Shown here in pieces: positions 4,777-62,240 of a stretch of DNA of 64,000 nt. Below the pieces are notes generated by a model, which saw only the letters and a list, made by a program, of their open reading frames with translations, searched no databases and had not been told where the DNA came from. The stretch is from Globisporangium splendens (lineage: Eukaryota > Oomycota > Peronosporomycetes > Pythiales > Pythiaceae). The position numbers and the translations under genes were made by a program. Location: NCBI GenBank assembly GCA_006386115.1, contig VFIW01000110.1:1-64000 (forward strand). The letters run 5' to 3'. Numbering within the stretch: position 1 is the first letter of the stretch; every line of letters starts with the position of its first letter.

Positions 4777-5300
4777 TCATGGCTGGTCTTCCGCGTCTTC
4801 ATCGAGCTGTTTGCTCAGTCGCGCGAGCTCCACCAGCGTCTGCGCACACGCCGAGCCGTGGTCGTCCGAGACCGGGTCGTGGTCGCTGGCTTTCCCAATG
4901 AACGTGAGCGCTTGCTCCTCGCTGAGGCACACCAAGACACCGTAGGCAACACGCACCTTGCCCTCGTTCAGCCTCATGATACCGTGCGCCACGGCCTCGC
5001 TCTTGCAGTCAAGCTTGCTGGCGTCCTCGTCGCGGATGATGCATCCGAGACAGACAACGCCATCGAGGCTGTCGTCACCTCTCATCATTGCCTTCGTCGC
5101 GTACGGTAGATCGAACTGGCGCTGGACGGTGCAGTAGCTCAGACCGTTGCGCGCGACGTCCTTGGCGAGCAGCGCTCTCTTCATGCCGGTCACGAGTAGC
5201 CCCACACGTTGGCGTGCGCGCGAGCCGACACGATCCCGAACTTGAGACCGCGGTCGTCCTCTTCGATGAAGCCGATGCGTCGGATCTCCTTCGTGGCCAT
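4777..5300 (-). CDS. Lumazine-synthase-fold paralogue 1, no Cys tail, one frameshift
   Basis: This is a homologue of 6,7-dimethyl-8-ribityllumazine synthase (RibH), which normally makes the riboflavin precursor. The ATG at 5300 opens MATKEIRRIGFIEEDDRG and then KFGIVSARAHANV. The frame stops after the C4 run at 5200-5203. One more base there would continue into LLVTGMKRALLAKD and the rest of the domain (FDLPYATKAM, DGVVCLGCIIR, VAYGVLVCLSEEQA). About 175 aa, the usual RibH length. The catalytic-loop consensus T-x-H-F is replaced by D-A-S-K, so the active-site His is absent, and the phosphate-binding Arg after EEQA is also missing. It ends soon after the last helix with an acidic DEDAEDQP and no Cys-rich tail, unlike the two paralogues downstream. 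Either slightly mis-sequenced or newly broken. Confidence 0.75.
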
Positions 5301-6962: not shown

Positions 6963-7814
6963 ATGGCGACGACGCACGCTGACTGCACGCACCACGACTC
7001 CCAGATGACCTTCAAGCCCGTTCTCGTCGAAGAACCCGGCGCGATCGCGTCGCCCAAGCTCGACGGCTCGGGGCTGCACGTCGGCATCGTGTACACGCGG
7101 CAGTCCCAGGAAGTGGTGAACGCGCTGGTGACGGCGTGCCGCGCGGAACTGCTGTTCAAAGGCGTGCCGCGCTCGAACGTCCATGAGCTGCAGGTCTCGC
7201 TGCCGTTCGAGATCCCGTACGCGCTCAAACGCATGCTGCAGGCGGCTCCAGGACGTCACTTCTTCGACGCCGTGGTCTGCATCGGCTGCATAGTCAAGGG
7301 CGAGACGCTGGGGTTTGAGTTTGCGGCTGAAGCCGTGACGCGCGCCAATGTGAAGCTCGGCATGAAGATGAAGACCCCCGTGATCAACGGCGTGCTCACG
7401 TGCACGGACGCAAGCCAGGCGCATATGTGCTCGGGGCTGAGTGGGGACAAGACGCGAAGCTGCAACTTCGGCGTGGAATTTGCGCAGTCGGCGATTGAGA
7501 TGGCGCTTTTCAACCGCAACGCGATGTGCGCGATGGTGGCGCACTGCAAGTGCGACTGTCACAGCTGCAAGGAAGAGAAAAAGGAGTGCTCGTGCGCGCG
7601 TGGCTGTGAAAAGTGTGAGAGCTCCGCGAAGGGCTGCGGCTGCAGCGATTGCCAGCAAAGTCAATGCCAGCAAAGTCAATGCCAGCAAGGACATGAAGGT
7701 AGCCAGGGTCAAGCTTCAGGCTCGAAGAACTCCGTGGCCGAGTCGACGCAGCACTCGTTGCAAAAGGGGGAATGCGGCGAGTGTGGATGCGTGGGCAGCA
7801 GCAAGAGCAAGTGA
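6963..7814 (+). CDS. Lumazine-synthase-fold protein with Cys-rich metallothionein-like tail (paralogue 2)
   Basis: 283 aa in one exon from the ATG at 6963. Residues about 35-185 are a lumazine-synthase domain: LHVGIVYTRQSQEVVNALV (strand 1), the substrate-loop FEIP at 82-85, DAVVCIGCIVKGET at 102-115, TPVINGVLTC and NFGVEFAQSAIEMAL. The catalytic His position (T-x-H) is Gly117, and the conserved Arg after the QA motif is replaced by Cys (AHMCSG). Residues 195-275 hold 16 Cys in CxC and CxxC spacing (CKCDCHSC, CSCARGCEKC, GCGCSDC, then two QQSQC units encoded by a 15-bp direct repeat). This resembles a metallothionein. The fold suggests an oligomer (pentamer or larger) displaying metal-binding tails. 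Enzyme activity looks lost; metal binding is inferred from composition only. Confidence 0.88.
   Translation: MATTHADCTHHDSQMTFKPVLVEEPGAIASPKLDGSGLHVGIVYTRQSQEVVNALVTACRAELLFKGVPRSNVHELQVSLPFEIPYALKRMLQAAPGRHFFDAVVCIGCIVKGETLGFEFAAEAVTRANVKLGMKMKTPVINGVLTCTDASQAHMCSGLSGDKTRSCNFGVEFAQSAIEMALFNRNAMCAMVAHCKCDCHSCKEEKKECSCARGCEKCESSAKGCGCSDCQQSQCQQSQCQQGHEGSQGQASGSKNSVAESTQHSLQKGECGECGCVGSSKSK
7670..7699 (+). repeat. Short direct repeat coding for QQSQC units
   Basis: Within the tail of paralogue 2, a 15-bp unit (tgccagcaaagtcaa) is repeated exactly, and a third, partial copy (tgccagcaa) follows. This suggests tail growth by local duplication. Confidence 0.7.
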
Positions 7815-8132
7815 GCTATGGAGGCGAGCTCACGAAACGAGGCATGAGGTCGCGTTTCTTATGGAGCGAGAGCACCATGTCTAATGCGTTGTGGTGTATG
7901 TGTTTGTGTCGTGGCTTGAAAAGTTGGCGGCGTGCTATTTGATTCATTTGTTTAGTATTTGAGTGGCTTGTTTTGGCTTCTTGACTTTCGTTGTTGCTGT
8001 TGGCTCAAGGTGGTGACCCAAAGCTCCTAGAAGATGTACTCACTCAAAGAGACGAACCGCCTGGTGGGTTCGTCATGTGCGTTAGGACGACGATGATCAC
8101 ATTAAGCTGCCTTGCAGCGATGGGACCCATTC
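7815..8132. other. Intergenic spacer
   Basis: It holds the 3' flank of paralogue 2 (T/G-rich) and the 5' flank of the broken secreted-protein gene. No other feature is seen. Confidence 0.5.
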
Positions 8133-8811
8133 ATGGTCTCTACAAAGCTTCTCGTCGCCGCCTTTGTCGTGCTCGCTGCCTCGGCAGTCGATGCGCACAG
8201 CACGCTCGACAAGTCAGGGCTCACCTTCACGGTCAAGGCACACAGCGACGACTTTTCCGCGACGGTGCCCATGAACAAACTCACGCCGCAGTGGGACGAG
8301 ATCTTCGCCAACTATCCAAGCTGGACCGCGAACACCAAGGCGTCCTCGTACAAGTCGCTCAAGGAGTTCATTTTCAAGAACCAGGAATTGAGGAAGGGCC
8401 GCGTTAGCAACCCAAAGACGGCCGAGTGTGGCTTCACGGACCCGAACAAAGGTCCTGTGCAGGCGCTGTCAACCAACTCAAATGGTACGGCGACTAGATG
8501 AACCATCCGAGTCCGTGCGAGGTGTGATGCGACAACGAGATCGCCGTCCCGTTCACGAGCGATTGCGCGGCGAGCTTCCCGCAGGGCAAGACCCCGCACA
8601 ACAAGGCCAAGTGCGTGGGCAAGAACCACTTGACCCTCTACTGGATGTCGACGCTCTCGGAGTGGCAGGTGTACATCGACTGCGCCAAGACCGGCAACGG
8701 CAGGAAGCTCGAGGACCAAGAGGCTGCCTGGGAGGCGACGCAGCCAACTCGCCCTCGCTGTATTTTGGCTATGCAATGCATGCCCAACTCGAGCGAGAGT
8801 GGAACAACTAA
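8133..8811 (+). pseudogene. Secreted protein gene, disrupted by frameshifts and a TGA
   Basis: The ATG at 8133 opens MVSTKLLVAAFVVLAASAVDA, a clear signal peptide with a likely cleavage before HSTLDKSG. The mature part continues to NSNGTATR and then stops. The next frame (shifted as if one base were missing near 8490) reads NHPSPCEV, a TGA, then CDNEIAVPFTSDCAASFPQG, KCVGKNHLTLYWMSTLSEW and QVYIDCAK. A third shift near 8725 gives GDAANSPSLYFGYAMHAQL and a stop at 8811. Both shifts are repaired by adding one base. The Cys-containing, Trp-rich C-terminal half looks like oomycete extracellular proteins, but I do not recognise the family. It is either a young pseudogene or a poorly resolved consensus. 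It sits between two lumazine-synthase paralogues. Confidence 0.6.
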
Positions 8812-9495
8812 ACCCCACCACATAATGAAATACGCCTATTGGATACTGTGTCTCCGTCGTTAATGAGTTCTTTGCATCTTAGTATCTGTCCTTCTTCAAA
8901 AGCTCTCTACGATGACGAGCGTGTGGCAGCACTGAGAGAGCGACAGAATGAGCTGAGCACCTAGCTTCCACGGAGAGTATTTGGGATTGAGGAAGGGGAA
9001 AAGTCGAAGCTGAAAACCCCCTCCCTGTGGCTTGTGTAACGCTGCGCTGCGTCGTGGTAAAATCTGCACACAATCATGCTCTCTTCTGCATGCGCATATT
9101 GTTTCTCTTGCTGATCTTGGTGTCCTTGGCCATGTCTCACACTTGAAGAGACGCAAAGAACCCACGCCACTCTGCACGCTCTCTTAGATGAACCCTTTCC
9201 GTTTTTGCTGCACATAATCAGCTGGTGATTGAACGCAACCAATGCTTTGGCAACAACTCCATTCCCAGAAACCATTCGGCATGGGTACACTCAGGACCTC
9301 ACGACAGTTGAATATGCGCATCCAACTGTGTGCCAAACTGTCGGTGCTCGATCCAACTGCCACGAGCTCAACGCCATCGTCTCGCTGTGAAGGAAGCGAC
9401 CAGGCGTCGAGCATATCCACTTCGCGCCGTTAGAAGCACGCGCATGTCTCTCTTTCTTCGCTGCTCGCACTCATCCGTACCATCCCCATACGCCT
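8812..9495. other. Intergenic spacer
   Basis: About 680 bp between the broken secreted-protein gene and paralogue 3. No supported gene, repeat or RNA. Confidence 0.5.
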
Positions 9496-9508
9496 TTCAT
9501 TGTTCAAC
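9494..9508 (+). promoter_or_regulatory. Oomycete initiator-like element before paralogue 3
   Basis: The sequence CTTTCATTGTTCAAC, about 20 bp upstream of the ATG at 9517, resembles the oomycete Inr (TCATTYYNCAW). Position suits a short 5' leader. Pattern match only. Confidence 0.4.
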
Positions 9509-9516
9509 ACGACAAG

Positions 9517-10488
9517 ATGGCAACCCAAGCAACGAAAGAAGCCTCGCTCCACGGCATTGGTGGTGGCGCCAACGCCGACCCCGTGCTCTCCGAGACGCTC
9601 GGACCGAGTTCGTTCCACCAGTTGGACGGCAAGGGTCTGCGCATGGCGATCGTGTCGTCGCGCTGGTACGGCAAGGAGGTCGTGGAGCCGCTCGTAGCCG
9701 CGTGCAAGGACGAACTGCTCGAGAAAGGTGTCAAGGCATCCGATCTGCTGCGCATCCAGGTTGCAGGCGCGTACGAGATCCCGTTTGCCGCGGGGCGTGT
9801 GATCCAGACGTACAAGCAGCGGCCGCTGGACGCCGTCATCTGCATCGGCTGCATGGTCAAGGGTGCCACGATGGCGTACGAGTTCGTGAGCGAGGCCGTG
9901 GCGATGGCGATCATGAAGCTCAACGTCAAGACCGACACACCCGTCGTCTTTGGCATCTTGACCTGCGCCAGCGAGGACGAAGCCAAGATGTGCGCGTCCA
10001 AGACGTGCGAGTGCGGCACGGCGCAGCAGGTCACTGGCGGACGCAAGTGCAACCACGGCGTGGAATGGGCTCACTCAGCGCTCGAGATGGCGCATCTGCG
10101 CCGCTCGACGGCCCACCAGATCGCGACCAAGTGTCTCTGCAAGTGCCACTGCAAGTCGGAGGACTGCCGCTGCTCGTGCCACTGCAAGAAGTGCAAGTGC
10201 GAGACGTGCACGTGCGAGAGCGACTGCAAGTGCGCGACCTGCGGCGGCAAAAGCGCCGCCAAGCAGCAGCATGCGAGCACCACGTGCACGAGCTGCGGCC
10301 AGACTAGCAGCACTAAATGCGATTGCAGGGACTGCAACTGTGACGCGTGTACCCAGAAGCAGCAGCAACATGGGAAAGCGAGCGTCTGCGCGGGCTGCGG
10401 TCAAACGAGCGACAAGTGCTACTGCCAAGGCTGCAACTGCCACGCGTGTGCCCAGAAGCAGCAAACGTTGGGTGCCGAGTTGCCATGA
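9517..10488 (+). CDS. Lumazine-synthase-fold protein with long Cys-rich repeat tail (paralogue 3)
   Basis: 323 aa, one exon. Residues about 35-200 are a lumazine-synthase domain: LRMAIVSSRWYGKEVVEPLV, AYEIPFAAGR with YEIP at 86-89, DAVICIGCMVKGAT, TPVVFGILTC and HGVEWAHSALEMA. The catalytic His position is Ala120 (ATMAYEF) and the Arg of the QAxxR-type motif is again Cys (AKMCAS). An extra Cys-containing insert (SKTCECG) lies before the last helix. Residues 206-311 contain 29 Cys, first as dense CxC/CxxC (KCLCKCHC, DCRCSCHC, CKCETCTC), then as two tandem units of 26-27 aa at 257-283 and 291-316, each CxxCGQTSxxKCxCxxCNC followed by ACxQKQQ. It shares order and frame with paralogue 2, so the tail is not an artefact. 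Likely a metal-binding pseudoenzyme; partner and metal unknown. Confidence 0.88.
   Translation: MATQATKEASLHGIGGGANADPVLSETLGPSSFHQLDGKGLRMAIVSSRWYGKEVVEPLVAACKDELLEKGVKASDLLRIQVAGAYEIPFAAGRVIQTYKQRPLDAVICIGCMVKGATMAYEFVSEAVAMAIMKLNVKTDTPVVFGILTCASEDEAKMCASKTCECGTAQQVTGGRKCNHGVEWAHSALEMAHLRRSTAHQIATKCLCKCHCKSEDCRCSCHCKKCKCETCTCESDCKCATCGGKSAAKQQHASTTCTSCGQTSSTKCDCRDCNCDACTQKQQQHGKASVCAGCGQTSDKCYCQGCNCHACAQKQQTLGAELP
10285..10464 (+). repeat. Two tandem units of about 80-100 bp in the tail of paralogue 3
   Basis: They encode the two copies of the CxxCGQTS...KCxCxxCNCxACxQKQQ unit at residues 257-283 and 291-316, separated by a short linker (QHGKASV). Confidence 0.75.
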
Positions 10489-58211: not shown

Positions 58212-61200
58212 TCATGCGTCTAGATTCCCGACAGCTTTGCTGGATTCGACCAGCGATTGGAAAATCGTTGGCTCCTTGCTGTTCAAGAGAGCTGCGGGTG
58301 TGTCGAACTCTTTCACTTCGCCTGCATCGAGCACCAAGATCTTGTCGCTGTCGAGGATCGTCTCGAGGCGATGCGCGATGCAGAGCACGGTCTTGTTTCC
58401 GCCACCAAAGCTTTCTTTGACCGTGAGCTGGATGAGCTTGTCGGATTCCTGGTCCACATTCGCTGTAGCTTCGTCCATGACGATCACCTTGCTCTCACGA
58501 ATCAACGCACGGGCGATACACAACAGCTGGCGCTGACCTACAGAGAGGTTGTCGCCCTTTTCCGCGACTTCGTACTCGAGTCCTTTCCCCCATGCACTCA
58601 CGGTATCGTGAAGATGTACTTTCCGGAGCACCTCCCAAAGTTCCACGTCGGATTTTTCAGCGAACGGGTCCAAATTCATGCGCAAGGAGCCACTGAAAAG
58701 CATCGGATCTTGCGGGATGATCGTCAGCTTGGATCGCAGCTGCTGCACCGTGATCGTCGAGATATCGACACCATCGATCACCACTCGACCAGCAGTACAC
58801 TCTACGACGCGGAACAACACGCTCATCAAGCTGCTCTTCCCCGAGCCCGTGCGGCCGCAGACACCAACTTTTTCGCCACTTGTGATGGAGAACGAGACGT
58901 TTTTCAGCACCAGTTCGAGGTCGTCTCGGTACCGCATCGTCACATTCTCGAACACAACACTCCCGCTTCGCGGCCACTCGGGTGCGAGGAGCTCCCGGTT
59001 CGTTGGCGAACATTTGTAGCCCTCAGCATCCAAGGATTCGTAGTGTGCGATCCGCTCAAAGCACGTCATGATGTTTTCCGTCATCGTCACAAGCGTCGTC
59101 ATGCGCTGGAATGACGACGTCAACTGAGCAGCGTACGTCAACCCAAGCCCTGCAACCGCAGCGCCAAGACTCTCCTTCGTCGCGACGGCCAACAGCGCGA
59201 CGGATGTAATGATCGAAGACACGAGCCAATCGGTGCGCATCGCAAACCACCGCGAGGATGACTGAAACGCGAAAAAAAACTTGGCGTTGTGGTTCAGCAA
59301 CTGTTCGCATTTCTGCAGGAACACATCGCTCATCTTGTACGACCGAATCGTTTCAATGCCATGAATCGTCTCCGACACCAAATTGAGGAACGGCGAACGC
59401 GTGATGCCATCCAAGCGCTTCAGTTCACGGGCCGATGCCTGGTACACACGCGTCACAAACACAAACACAAAACCGAGTGGCAAGTACAGGATCAACACAT
59501 ACGGGTTCGTCGCTGCACAAACAAGGAACGCCGATGAGATCTGGAATAAATACAGCAGCATCCACATGCTGAAGTATGGCAACGGGTTGTCCACTTGATC
59601 GAGATCCCGGGAAAAGCGGTTCAACACTCGTCCGACGGGAGTGACGTCAAAAAACGTCGTCACGGGCGCCGACAGCACTTTCCACATGTACTTGAAATGC
59701 AAGTTCGCGGAGCAGCGCATGCACATTTCCGTGTAAAACACGCAGCGTGCAAGAACCAGAGCCGACGCGACAACAACGAGCCCCATGTAAATGCCCAAAG
59801 ACGTTCCCTGGCTGTAATGGATCGCACCGTTCGACCATTTACTGAGGAACCAGTCGCAGAAGAAAAGCGCGACTTGCGCGATCGTGAACAAGAACAGGAT
59901 CGTTATGCCGACGACGAAGCCATTCCATCCGCAGCAATCCAGGTATTTCACATACGTTCTCCAATTGACGGATCCAATCAGTCGATCTTCTTCGACGATC
60001 AGCTTCTTCTGCTTCGAGTCCTTTGTCTCGTCTCCTGTGGTTTCGATGCGCGAGGTAGCTATTTTCTTGCTAGCTTTCTTGACGTTGCGTTCTAAAGCAG
60101 AAGCATCGTCTTCGTTCTCCATATTATCATCTTCTCCCTCAGCAGTGGATGCATTTTTACGTGGCGACTGCGCCAAGAACGGGAATTCACCTCTTAACTC
60201 GCCTAGCGTGCCGTCGCCGATGATTCGTCCGCCCGACATAACGAGGATGCGATCGGCGTATTGCAAAAAATGATAGTGCGAGTTCAACACAAGCAAGCGC
60301 GTCTTCTCCTTCGCGATGCCGTTGAGTCCATCCGCAAAGACCGAGTTCGCGACGTGCACATCCAGAGCGCTCAGCGGGTCGTCGAGCATGAGGAAATCGC
60401 AGCGACGCACTCGGTACATCGCGCGCGCAATACTCACTCGCGCTTTCTGGCCGCCACTCAAGTTGATGCCTCGCTCACCAATTTCTGTGGCATCCCCCTG
60501 CTCGAGCATCTCAAAGTCAGGCACCAATTGGCACGCGGATACCACATTCTGGTAATGCGTCGCGTCAAAGCGCTCTCCGAAGAGAATGTTCTCGCGCAAG
60601 GTCTGATTTTGAATCCACGGCTGTTGACTTGAGTACGCGAATGCGCCGTGCACGTCGCGCTCGCCCCTCGTTTGCAGCATTTCTCCAAGAATCGCGTTAA
60701 TGAGACTCGACTTGCCGCTCCCGACAGTGCCAACAATCACTGTCAGTGTGCCAGGTTTGATCGTAAGATTGATATCTGACAGGTTCGACGACTCGGCGTT
60801 GTGCAGCCATTGGAAATCGGCATTGCGAATAGAGATTTTCTGCTGCAATTGCGCACATTTGCTGTCGTCGTCGTGCTGCTTGTCTTCGACTTCGTCAGCG
60901 ATCAGGAAATCCGAAATGCGCTTTGTGGACGCCGCTGCTTCCGAGACGTACACTGTCGCGTTCGCAAAGATACTGAACGGCATCTTGCAAGCATTCGAGA
61001 GCGCGAGGATCACAAACGCCGTCGCGACATCCAGCGTTTTACCCAAAAGAATGTACGTGAAGAAGCACACGGCATTCAAGAACGACGGCGCGAGAAACAT
61101 CAGCACGGCGTTGTACAGTCGCAAGTAGTTGTACTGCCGCATGAGCGCGATCTCGCTGTCGCGCACAGAGCGGATCTTTTCGCTGATCGAGTTTTCCCAT

Positions 61201-62240
61201 CCGTAGAACTTGATCACGCGGATGCCCTGGAGCACTTCGTTGGTCACTTTCACGCGCTCAGCGCTCACTTTAGCGATCTGGCGTCGGTAAATGCCCACTT
61301 GGCGTGACGTCGTGAACGCGAGGTAGATGATGAGCACGATCGTCGCGGCACCCGCGAGACCCACGTACACGCCCATTTGCGTGCCGATCATGATGCACAC
61401 GACGGTGAGCATGATCGGCGAGATGACGCTCCAGAGACCGATGCTGTAAGCCTCGAGAAGCCGTTCGCTGTCGACGCTCGCGAGCGTGACGATCTCGCCC
61501 GAGTTCATTGTGCGACGCGCGGTCGCCGAAAGCCGCAGAATCTTCTGGTACACGCTGTTGATGACAATCATGCGCGCATTGCATCCGGCGCGCGCCGTGA
61601 GGAACATACCCGAGTTGATCGCGATCGCGCCGCAAAACGAGATGGTGCCGAGCAGACACGCGAGTCCGTACCCGGACGTGATGCCGAACACGTTCTCCTT
61701 GTCCTGCAAGTACTGCAGAATCGCCTTGATCAGCATCGGCTGGAACACTGTGAACGTCGCGCTCATGAGATGCAGCACGATCGCCAGCGTCATCGTGTTC
61801 TTCGTCGCCGTCCACAACGCGACTTGGAATCGCGGCGGCTTCGTGGACGCAGGCGTCTCGGGGTGTGTACTTGAAGACGCGATACGGTGGCGCTCGTGGG
61901 CCCACGCGGCGTCAAAGCGCGTCTGCAGGGCTTGAGACTGGTCGGCTTTCGGCAATTCCCACACATTGTCTTCCTGGAGCGGAGCGGCGAACCCGCGTCG
62001 CAGCAGCGGCTGGATCCACCAGATCGTCGTGAACGATAGCAGATTCGCCGAGTCCAATGGGCTCGCGTTCGTTGTCGCATCGTCGTCCTGAGTCCGCCCA
62101 GCGAACTTCGGCGTTGTCGATGCGGCGCGAGGGGTCTTGAGCTCGTGGAAGCTGCCGCGGCTCTCGTCGTCGCGGTGGTCGACTGGTCTCGCCGCTGCCT
62201 TCACTGCGTCATGTCCTTCGCCTTGTGCTGCGGACCCCAT
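58212..62240 (-). CDS. ABCC (MRP-type) ABC transporter, full length
   Basis: Single exon, ATG at 62240, 1,342 aa. Order: disordered N-terminus; transmembrane domain 1 (LNSADNLLSF-type start, helices about residues 145-400); NBD1 with Walker A GTVGSGKSS, signature LSGGQKARVSIARAM and Walker B FLMLDDPLSALD; linker with many Glu/Lys; TMD2 (FVVGITILFLFTIAQVALFF and following); NBD2 with Walker A GRTGSGKSSLMSV, signature LSVGQRQLLCIARAL and Walker B VIVMDEATANVD. NBD1 has Asp where the catalytic Glu would be, as usual for ABCC proteins. There is no TMD0, so it is a short MRP. Likely exports conjugated organic anions or toxins across the plasma or vacuolar membrane; the substrate is not readable from sequence. 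Confidence 0.95.
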   Translation of the reverse strand: MGSAAQGEGHDAVKAAARPVDHRDDESRGSFHELKTPRAASTTPKFAGRTQDDDATTNASPLDSANLLSFTTIWWIQPLLRRGFAAPLQEDNVWELPKADQSQALQTRFDAAWAHERHRIASSSTHPETPASTKPPRFQVALWTATKNTMTLAIVLHLMSATFTVFQPMLIKAILQYLQDKENVFGITSGYGLACLLGTISFCGAIAINSGMFLTARAGCNARMIVINSVYQKILRLSATARRTMNSGEIVTLASVDSERLLEAYSIGLWSVISPIMLTVVCIMIGTQMGVYVGLAGAATIVLIIYLAFTTSRQVGIYRRQIAKVSAERVKVTNEVLQGIRVIKFYGWENSISEKIRSVRDSEIALMRQYNYLRLYNAVLMFLAPSFLNAVCFFTYILLGKTLDVATAFVILALSNACKMPFSIFANATVYVSEAAASTKRISDFLIADEVEDKQHDDDSKCAQLQQKISIRNADFQWLHNAESSNLSDINLTIKPGTLTVIVGTVGSGKSSLINAILGEMLQTRGERDVHGAFAYSSQQPWIQNQTLRENILFGERFDATHYQNVVSACQLVPDFEMLEQGDATEIGERGINLSGGQKARVSIARAMYRVRRCDFLMLDDPLSALDVHVANSVFADGLNGIAKEKTRLLVLNSHYHFLQYADRILVMSGGRIIGDGTLGELRGEFPFLAQSPRKNASTAEGEDDNMENEDDASALERNVKKASKKIATSRIETTGDETKDSKQKKLIVEEDRLIGSVNWRTYVKYLDCCGWNGFVVGITILFLFTIAQVALFFCDWFLSKWSNGAIHYSQGTSLGIYMGLVVVASALVLARCVFYTEMCMRCSANLHFKYMWKVLSAPVTTFFDVTPVGRVLNRFSRDLDQVDNPLPYFSMWMLLYLFQISSAFLVCAATNPYVLILYLPLGFVFVFVTRVYQASARELKRLDGITRSPFLNLVSETIHGIETIRSYKMSDVFLQKCEQLLNHNAKFFFAFQSSSRWFAMRTDWLVSSIITSVALLAVATKESLGAAVAGLGLTYAAQLTSSFQRMTTLVTMTENIMTCFERIAHYESLDAEGYKCSPTNRELLAPEWPRSGSVVFENVTMRYRDDLELVLKNVSFSITSGEKVGVCGRTGSGKSSLMSVLFRVVECTAGRVVIDGVDISTITVQQLRSKLTIIPQDPMLFSGSLRMNLDPFAEKSDVELWEVLRKVHLHDTVSAWGKGLEYEVAEKGDNLSVGQRQLLCIARALIRESKVIVMDEATANVDQESDKLIQLTVKESFGGGNKTVLCIAHRLETILDSDKILVLDAGEVKEFDTPAALLNSKEPTIFQSLVESSKAVGNLDA

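Follow-up and report, generated by a model that had tools for sequence, protein, structure and literature searches.

Particles engineered from lumazine synthase (LS) display fused peptides, with the LS fold acting as a multivalent scaffold. Here we describe two neighbouring genes, ORF1 and ORF2 (open reading frames 1 and 2), of the oomycete Globisporangium splendens which encode an LS-like domain followed in the same frame by a cysteine (Cys)-rich tail. They lie in the stretch of DNA analysed here (the window), which covers contig C16 from its start to 64 kb, in a 53.3-Mb assembly of 195 contigs. According to excerpts of the articles cited, the LS of S. cerevisiae, S. pombe and M. grisea are pentamers and those of B. 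subtilis, A. aeolicus and others are 60-mers (PMC10366380), in the capsid, the twofold contact is where the alpha4-alpha5 loop lies (PMC2935281), and His88 and Arg127 are named as important for catalysis (PMC12871164). Metallothioneins have been predicted in Phytophthora (three) and Peronospora (two) (PMC9036806, PMC7216689); one expressed sequence tag of Plasmopara bears a plant-metallothionein signature, as far as the excerpt tells (PMC2242796). A search of the open-licence literature, which leaves subscription journals mostly outside, gave nothing on point for LS in oomycetes or for LS fused to a metallothionein-like or Cys-rich region, in agreement with an earlier sequence-only reading of the window that had known of no such fusion.

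Structure of the two tailed genes

ORF1 and ORF2 are intact, intronless open frames on the plus strand. Pfam PF00885 (DMRL_synthase) was the sole convincing family in each of them, with E values of 3.3e-33 for ORF1 and 4.3e-39 for ORF2. The proteins belong to two types, A (ORF2) and B (ORF1), and their features are the following (window coordinates, all on the plus strand).

6963..7814, plus: ORF1, type B, LS-like domain and Cys tail, 283 amino acids
7074..7511, plus: LS-fold core of ORF1, residues 38-183 (Pfam; predicted structure and fold match)
7311..7313, plus: Gly117 of ORF1 at the place of the catalytic His (alignment; codon checked)
7428..7430, plus: Cys156 of ORF1 at the place of the catalytic Arg (alignment; codon checked)
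7539..7811, plus: ORF1 tail, 91 amino acids with 16 Cys (residue count)
9517..10488, plus: ORF2, type A, LS-like domain and Cys tail, 323 amino acids
9634..10101, plus: LS-fold core of ORF2, residues 40-195 (Pfam; predicted structure and fold match)
9874..9876, plus: Ala120 of ORF2 at the place of the catalytic His (alignment; codon checked)
9991..9993, plus: Cys159 of ORF2 at the place of the catalytic Arg (alignment; codon checked)
10126..10485, plus: ORF2 tail, 120 amino acids with 29 Cys (residue count)
10132..10242, plus: first Cys/His block of the ORF2 tail (motif in 15 of 26 type A rows)
10285..10350, plus: first seven-Cys module of the ORF2 tail (motif search)
10387..10449, plus: second seven-Cys module of the ORF2 tail (motif search)

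Tails were counted from residue 193 in ORF1 and from residue 204 in ORF2. The first has five CxC and four CxxC motifs and no aromatic residue, and the second 13 CxC and nine CxxC motifs and a single aromatic residue. When the 308 open frames of at least 91 amino acids in the window were ranked by their largest number of Cys per 91 residues, these two frames were at the top (24 and 17), and the maximum in 20 mononucleotide-shuffled versions of the window was 7-11. Position, strand, Pfam domains and the 16 and 29 tail Cys all agree with the in-frame fusion proposed by the sequence-only reading, and the CxC/CxxC spacing together with the near absence of aromatic residues bears out its description of the tails as metallothionein-like in make-up. 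After its first block, the ORF2 tail contains two copies of a seven-Cys module, CxxCG...CxCxxCxCxxC.

The same gene pair, with its fusions, is also present on contig C66 (79,899 bases), with about 94% DNA identity to C16, and a public G. splendens protein is an exact match to the C66 copy of ORF1. We infer that C16 and C66 are two haplotypes of G. splendens (Oomycota, Pythiales). In addition, the ORF2 fusion was found in G. ultimum as a protein of 324 amino acids (P0001) with 89% identity across 100% of the query. The possibility of a secreted Cys-rich protein was considered and rejected, as the N-termini of both proteins have no apparent signal peptide when judged by eye.

Relatives, tail conservation and loss of catalytic residues

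A search with ORF2 yielded 23 proteins, of which 21 were aligned with ORF2 and ORF1 (alignment A1), leaving out two ordinary LS. The search with A1 gave 162 matches, 120 of them listed, and sequences were examined for 49 of these 120 (P0001-P0048 and P0059). P0001-P0042 comprised 25 type A proteins, 15 type B proteins and two ordinary oomycete LS; none was dropped, though some are fragmentary or doubtful (P0007 and P0028 have no start Met and P0017 has an internal repeat). The counts given below refer therefore to 42 rows, which are these 40 relatives plus ORF1 and ORF2, with 26 rows of type A (including ORF2) and 16 of type B (including ORF1). The 40 tailed relatives come from Globisporangium, Pythium, Phytophthora, Peronospora and Albugo and from metagenome proteins, the named sources including G. 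ultimum, G. splendens, Pythium oligandrum, P. insidiosum, P. brassicae, Phytophthora fragariaefolia, Peronospora belbahrii and Albugo laibachii. The other 78 listed matches are proteins of 126-238 amino acids, and none of the seven examined had a Cys tail.

A tree of 52 rows, built with 150 core columns and excluding the tails, with some long branches, placed types A and B in one clade (100/94), in which type B is solid (100/99) and type A weaker (93/83). The sister group of this clade was that of the ordinary oomycete LS (96/87). The simplest history for these sequences would be a single duplication from LS, with loss of the catalytic residues and gain of the Cys tail, followed by the split between types A and B. 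Tandem pairing of both types, which had been noticed in the window as two tandem paralogues, recurs among the relatives: 10 of the 15 type B matches share a contig with a type A protein, as inferred from equal contig sizes, and four of these ten pairs, all in named species, have consecutive locus tags. One of the five unpaired type B matches is the C66 copy of G. splendens itself, which does have ORF2 beside it.

Tails of type A proteins contain 7-41 Cys after the core, so that all 26 rows have at least seven. The seven-Cys module, in a loose form, is present in one to three copies in 19 of the 26 rows, and neither this module nor the first-block motif was detected in any of the 16 type B rows. 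Between haplotypes, the ratio of nonsynonymous to synonymous substitution rates (dN/dS) was 0.23 for ORF2 (0.34 in the core and 0.14 in the tail) and 0.36 for ORF1 (0.40 and 0.28, respectively), and 29 of 29 tail Cys of ORF2 and 15 of 16 of ORF1 were kept. The excess of synonymous changes in the ORF2 tail was clear (p 1e-4), and this tail is under purifying selection between haplotypes. When compared with G. ultimum, it has 29 of 29 Cys identical and 77 of 91 other residues (p 0.02). These data bear on the possibility that the tails are untranslated, being frames open by chance or artefacts of gene models. That the proteins of other species are themselves gene models or metagenome predictions would agree with this, but the frame is kept on both haplotype contigs and in G. 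ultimum, the Cys tail is found in every type A row and the changes in the ORF2 tail are biased to synonymous ones. Selection on the tail and its conservation led us to reject the artefact, to which we concede hardly any probability.

The joining of the tail to the RibH domain in the type A rows also bears on an objection raised by the sequence-only reading, namely that in close relatives the domain might end normally, with the Cys region encoded by a separate gene. Such a case was not seen in the 26 type A rows, and the searches for a separate gene were of low sensitivity. In the G. splendens genome, a search with the ORF2 tail retrieved only the two ORF2 alleles and missed the ORF1 tails, so it would also miss a diverged tail gene. 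A search for tail-only proteins, with length limits that excluded full-length relatives, gave four candidates, none at E 1e-3, which is weak evidence because word-based searches perform poorly on Cys-rich sequence. Low-scoring matches of the ORF1 tail to DUF123 (E 0.13-0.6) and of the ORF2 tail to scorpine and flavodoxin (E 0.02-0.8) were taken as chance.

For the catalytic residues, the reference was the ordinary LS of the G. splendens genome, whose protein is identical on two contigs. It has both residues, which were matched by motif: the His within GDTMHFEY, usually numbered His88, and the Arg within DRAG, usually numbered Arg127. These two are kept in the 10 ordinary LS compared and lost in the 42 type A and B rows. 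The place of the His is occupied by Ala (29 rows), Ser (8), Met (3) or Gly (2), and that of the Arg by Cys in 40 rows, Tyr in one and Ala in one. Since both residues are lost in all 42 rows, neither ORF1 nor ORF2 is probably a working LS. The RibH-type assignment of the sequence-only reading thus holds for fold and homology and not, judging by these residues, for a working enzyme. Among the 26 type A rows, all keep the Glu and 25 keep the ring-stacking Trp, so that type A is a better candidate than type B for retained binding and might still bind a flavin-like ligand; in type B the Trp is lost in 16 of 16 rows and the GAYE block is altered.

UniRef, NCBI and JGI name tailed proteins (P0001, P0009, P0021 and others) 6,7-dimethyl-8-ribityllumazine synthase despite the missing His and Arg. 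On the tailed proteins this name is probably a misannotation.

Fold, assembly and proposed role

AlphaFold2 models had predicted local distance difference test (pLDDT) values above 90 across most of both cores and of 60-74 in a lengthened loop. From residue 201 onwards, eight of 13 ten-residue blocks of the ORF2 tail were below 70, and the blocks of the ORF1 tail were at 43-53. The first Foldseek matches of both proteins were LS structures, with fungal pentameric ones among the top. The alpha4-alpha5 loop has 20 residues in ORF2 and 12 in ORF1, compared with 6-7 in six ordinary LS rows; the three ordinary oomycete LS have 9 and the remaining ordinary row has 17. In the tailed clade it has 10-31 residues in 40 of 42 rows, the ranges being 8-31 in type A and 12-14 in type B. 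Taking loop length as an indicator of the oligomer, a criterion which is our own, the longer loop would favour a pentamer over a 60-mer. Of the two assemblies, pentamers or 60-mers, put forward by the sequence-only reading, the pentamer is therefore the more likely guess, and icosahedral display on a 60-mer, although possible, is disfavoured by a loop longer than the 6-9 residues of nine of the 10 ordinary LS.

The explanation that we favour, with moderate confidence, is that of a non-enzymatic scaffold derived from LS, with metal-binding tails on a pentamer. In a duplicated oomycete LS, the catalytic His and Arg would have been replaced and a Cys-rich tail added at the C-terminus, while the core would still fold and assemble as a pentamer. 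Each pentamer would present to the reducing cytosol five flexible tails bearing thiolates, amounting to about 145 tail Cys in the case of ORF2, and the thiolate clusters would take up soft d10 ions such as Zn, Cd or Cu(I). The whole might thus be an oligomeric metallothionein that buffers or detoxifies metals, and the metal storage, detoxification or redox buffering proposed from the window alone could be served by such tails. The ordinary LS gene elsewhere in the genome would supply riboflavin synthesis.

Several results weigh against this explanation. No Pfam or NCBIfam model, those of metallothioneins included, matched the tails up to E 10, the chance DUF123 match excepted. The type A proteins P0018 and P0019 have a short loop of 8 residues, and the Albugo-like P0020 and P0021 have type A tails with only seven Cys. 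The synonymous excess in the ORF1 tail is borderline (p 0.015 or 0.06 depending on rounding). Tails of type B rows have 3-17 Cys, and only 3-4 in five of the 16; the Cys-rich tail of ORF1 is not typical of its type, and the richness in Cys noted in both proteins is a conserved trait in type A but not in type B. As the type B tail is so variable, metal binding and partnership in co-assembly are equally likely roles for this type. In P0028 and P0035, two of the three rows with Met at the catalytic place, a His occurs one position earlier and may be a shifted catalytic residue. Finally, both proteins surpass the cut-off of the LS equivalog TIGR00114 (84.6 bits), ORF2 with 107.4 bits and ORF1 with 84.8, that is, by 0.2 bits, so that an automatic pipeline would label them as enzymes. 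This last result, together with the Trp and Glu kept in type A, would be expected of still-working LS provided with a metal-responsive or protective tail. However, the loss of both His and Arg, which are important for catalysis in the excerpt mentioned above (PMC12871164), extends to every tailed row, type B is devoid of the Trp and an ordinary LS exists in the genome, and we consider continued enzymatic activity quite improbable.

Another interpretation is that the tails act structurally, as zinc knots, or as a thiol switch that senses redox state and controls assembly or partner binding; bulk metal storage would then be incidental. The ordered repetition of modules in type A, the core Cys at the former place of the Arg in 40 of 42 rows and the conserved tandem partner of the other type agree with it, but the number of modules (0-3) and of tail Cys (7-41) in type A fits a capacity more than one fixed structure, and the tails are mostly predicted with low confidence. 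It appears to us unlikely, if deserving of attention, when compared with the oligomeric metallothionein. The latter could also be coupled to flavin: as type A keeps the Trp and Glu without the His and Arg, bound riboflavin or lumazine could report the flavin or redox state to the five tails and so time the release of metal, and since both types are kept as tandem neighbours, mixed A/B pentamers of tunable metal capacity may form. This elaboration is offered as an improbable one.

Genome context and comparison with known systems

A PF00885 profile search of the genome contigs matched seven places: the ordinary LS on C129 and C162, the two tailed genes on each of C16 and C66, and a third copy on C16 only. 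Those additional to the tailed genes are the following.

1438-2085 of contig C129: ordinary LS, PF00885 match
4777-5300 of the window, minus: third LS-like copy, broken, with two open pieces in different frames and no Cys tail

The C-terminus of the ordinary oomycete LS has a hydrophobic stretch followed by basic residues, resembling a tail anchor when judged by eye; a similar end is seen in P0023 of G. ultimum and, less clearly, in P0022 of Aphanomyces. The ordinary LS of oomycetes may be attached to a membrane. The second piece of the third copy showed 30-37% identity to tailed and ordinary LS among the 18 best matches listed, and most of this copy, about 300 bases (window 4958-5264), has no counterpart on contig C66. 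Between ORF1 and ORF2, a frame at 8112-8501 (plus strand) has, from its first inner Met, a start like that of secreted proteins and gave no match in the Pfam search; further open stretches follow in other frames, and the gene may be spliced or broken. Additionally, 58212-62240 (minus strand), 48 kb away, encodes what looks like a full-length ABC transporter with two ABC_membrane and two ABC_tran stretches, whose link to metal export would be speculation.

If the favoured explanation is true, these proteins are a natural metallothionein on an oligomeric, retired vitamin B2 enzyme, kept from Albugo to Pythium and Phytophthora. They would represent a clear reuse of an enzyme as scaffold in a genome that retains the parent enzyme, and a new metal-buffering architecture in a group pathogenic to plants and animals; the database entries naming them LS would need correcting. 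The parts are of known kinds, and what seems new is the combination of LS and Cys tail and its conservation in oomycetes. With respect to RibH LS (PF00885, including the pentameric fungal structures 1ejb, 1c41 and 4kq6 of the PDB), the tailed clade is alike in fold and sequence homology, with the pocket Trp and Glu kept in type A, and differs in the loss of His and Arg, in the longer loop of 40 of 42 rows and in the added C-terminal Cys tail. The ORF2 tail resembles metallothioneins in its Cys content (29 of 120 residues), its CxC/CxxC spacing and its almost complete lack of aromatic residues; unlike them, it is fused to a larger folded LS core instead of being a small separate protein, and it lacks a match to their models. 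Finally, engineered LS particles share with this system the multivalent LS scaffold, whereas the scaffold found here is natural, evolved, non-catalytic by its sequence and likelier to form pentamers than cages.

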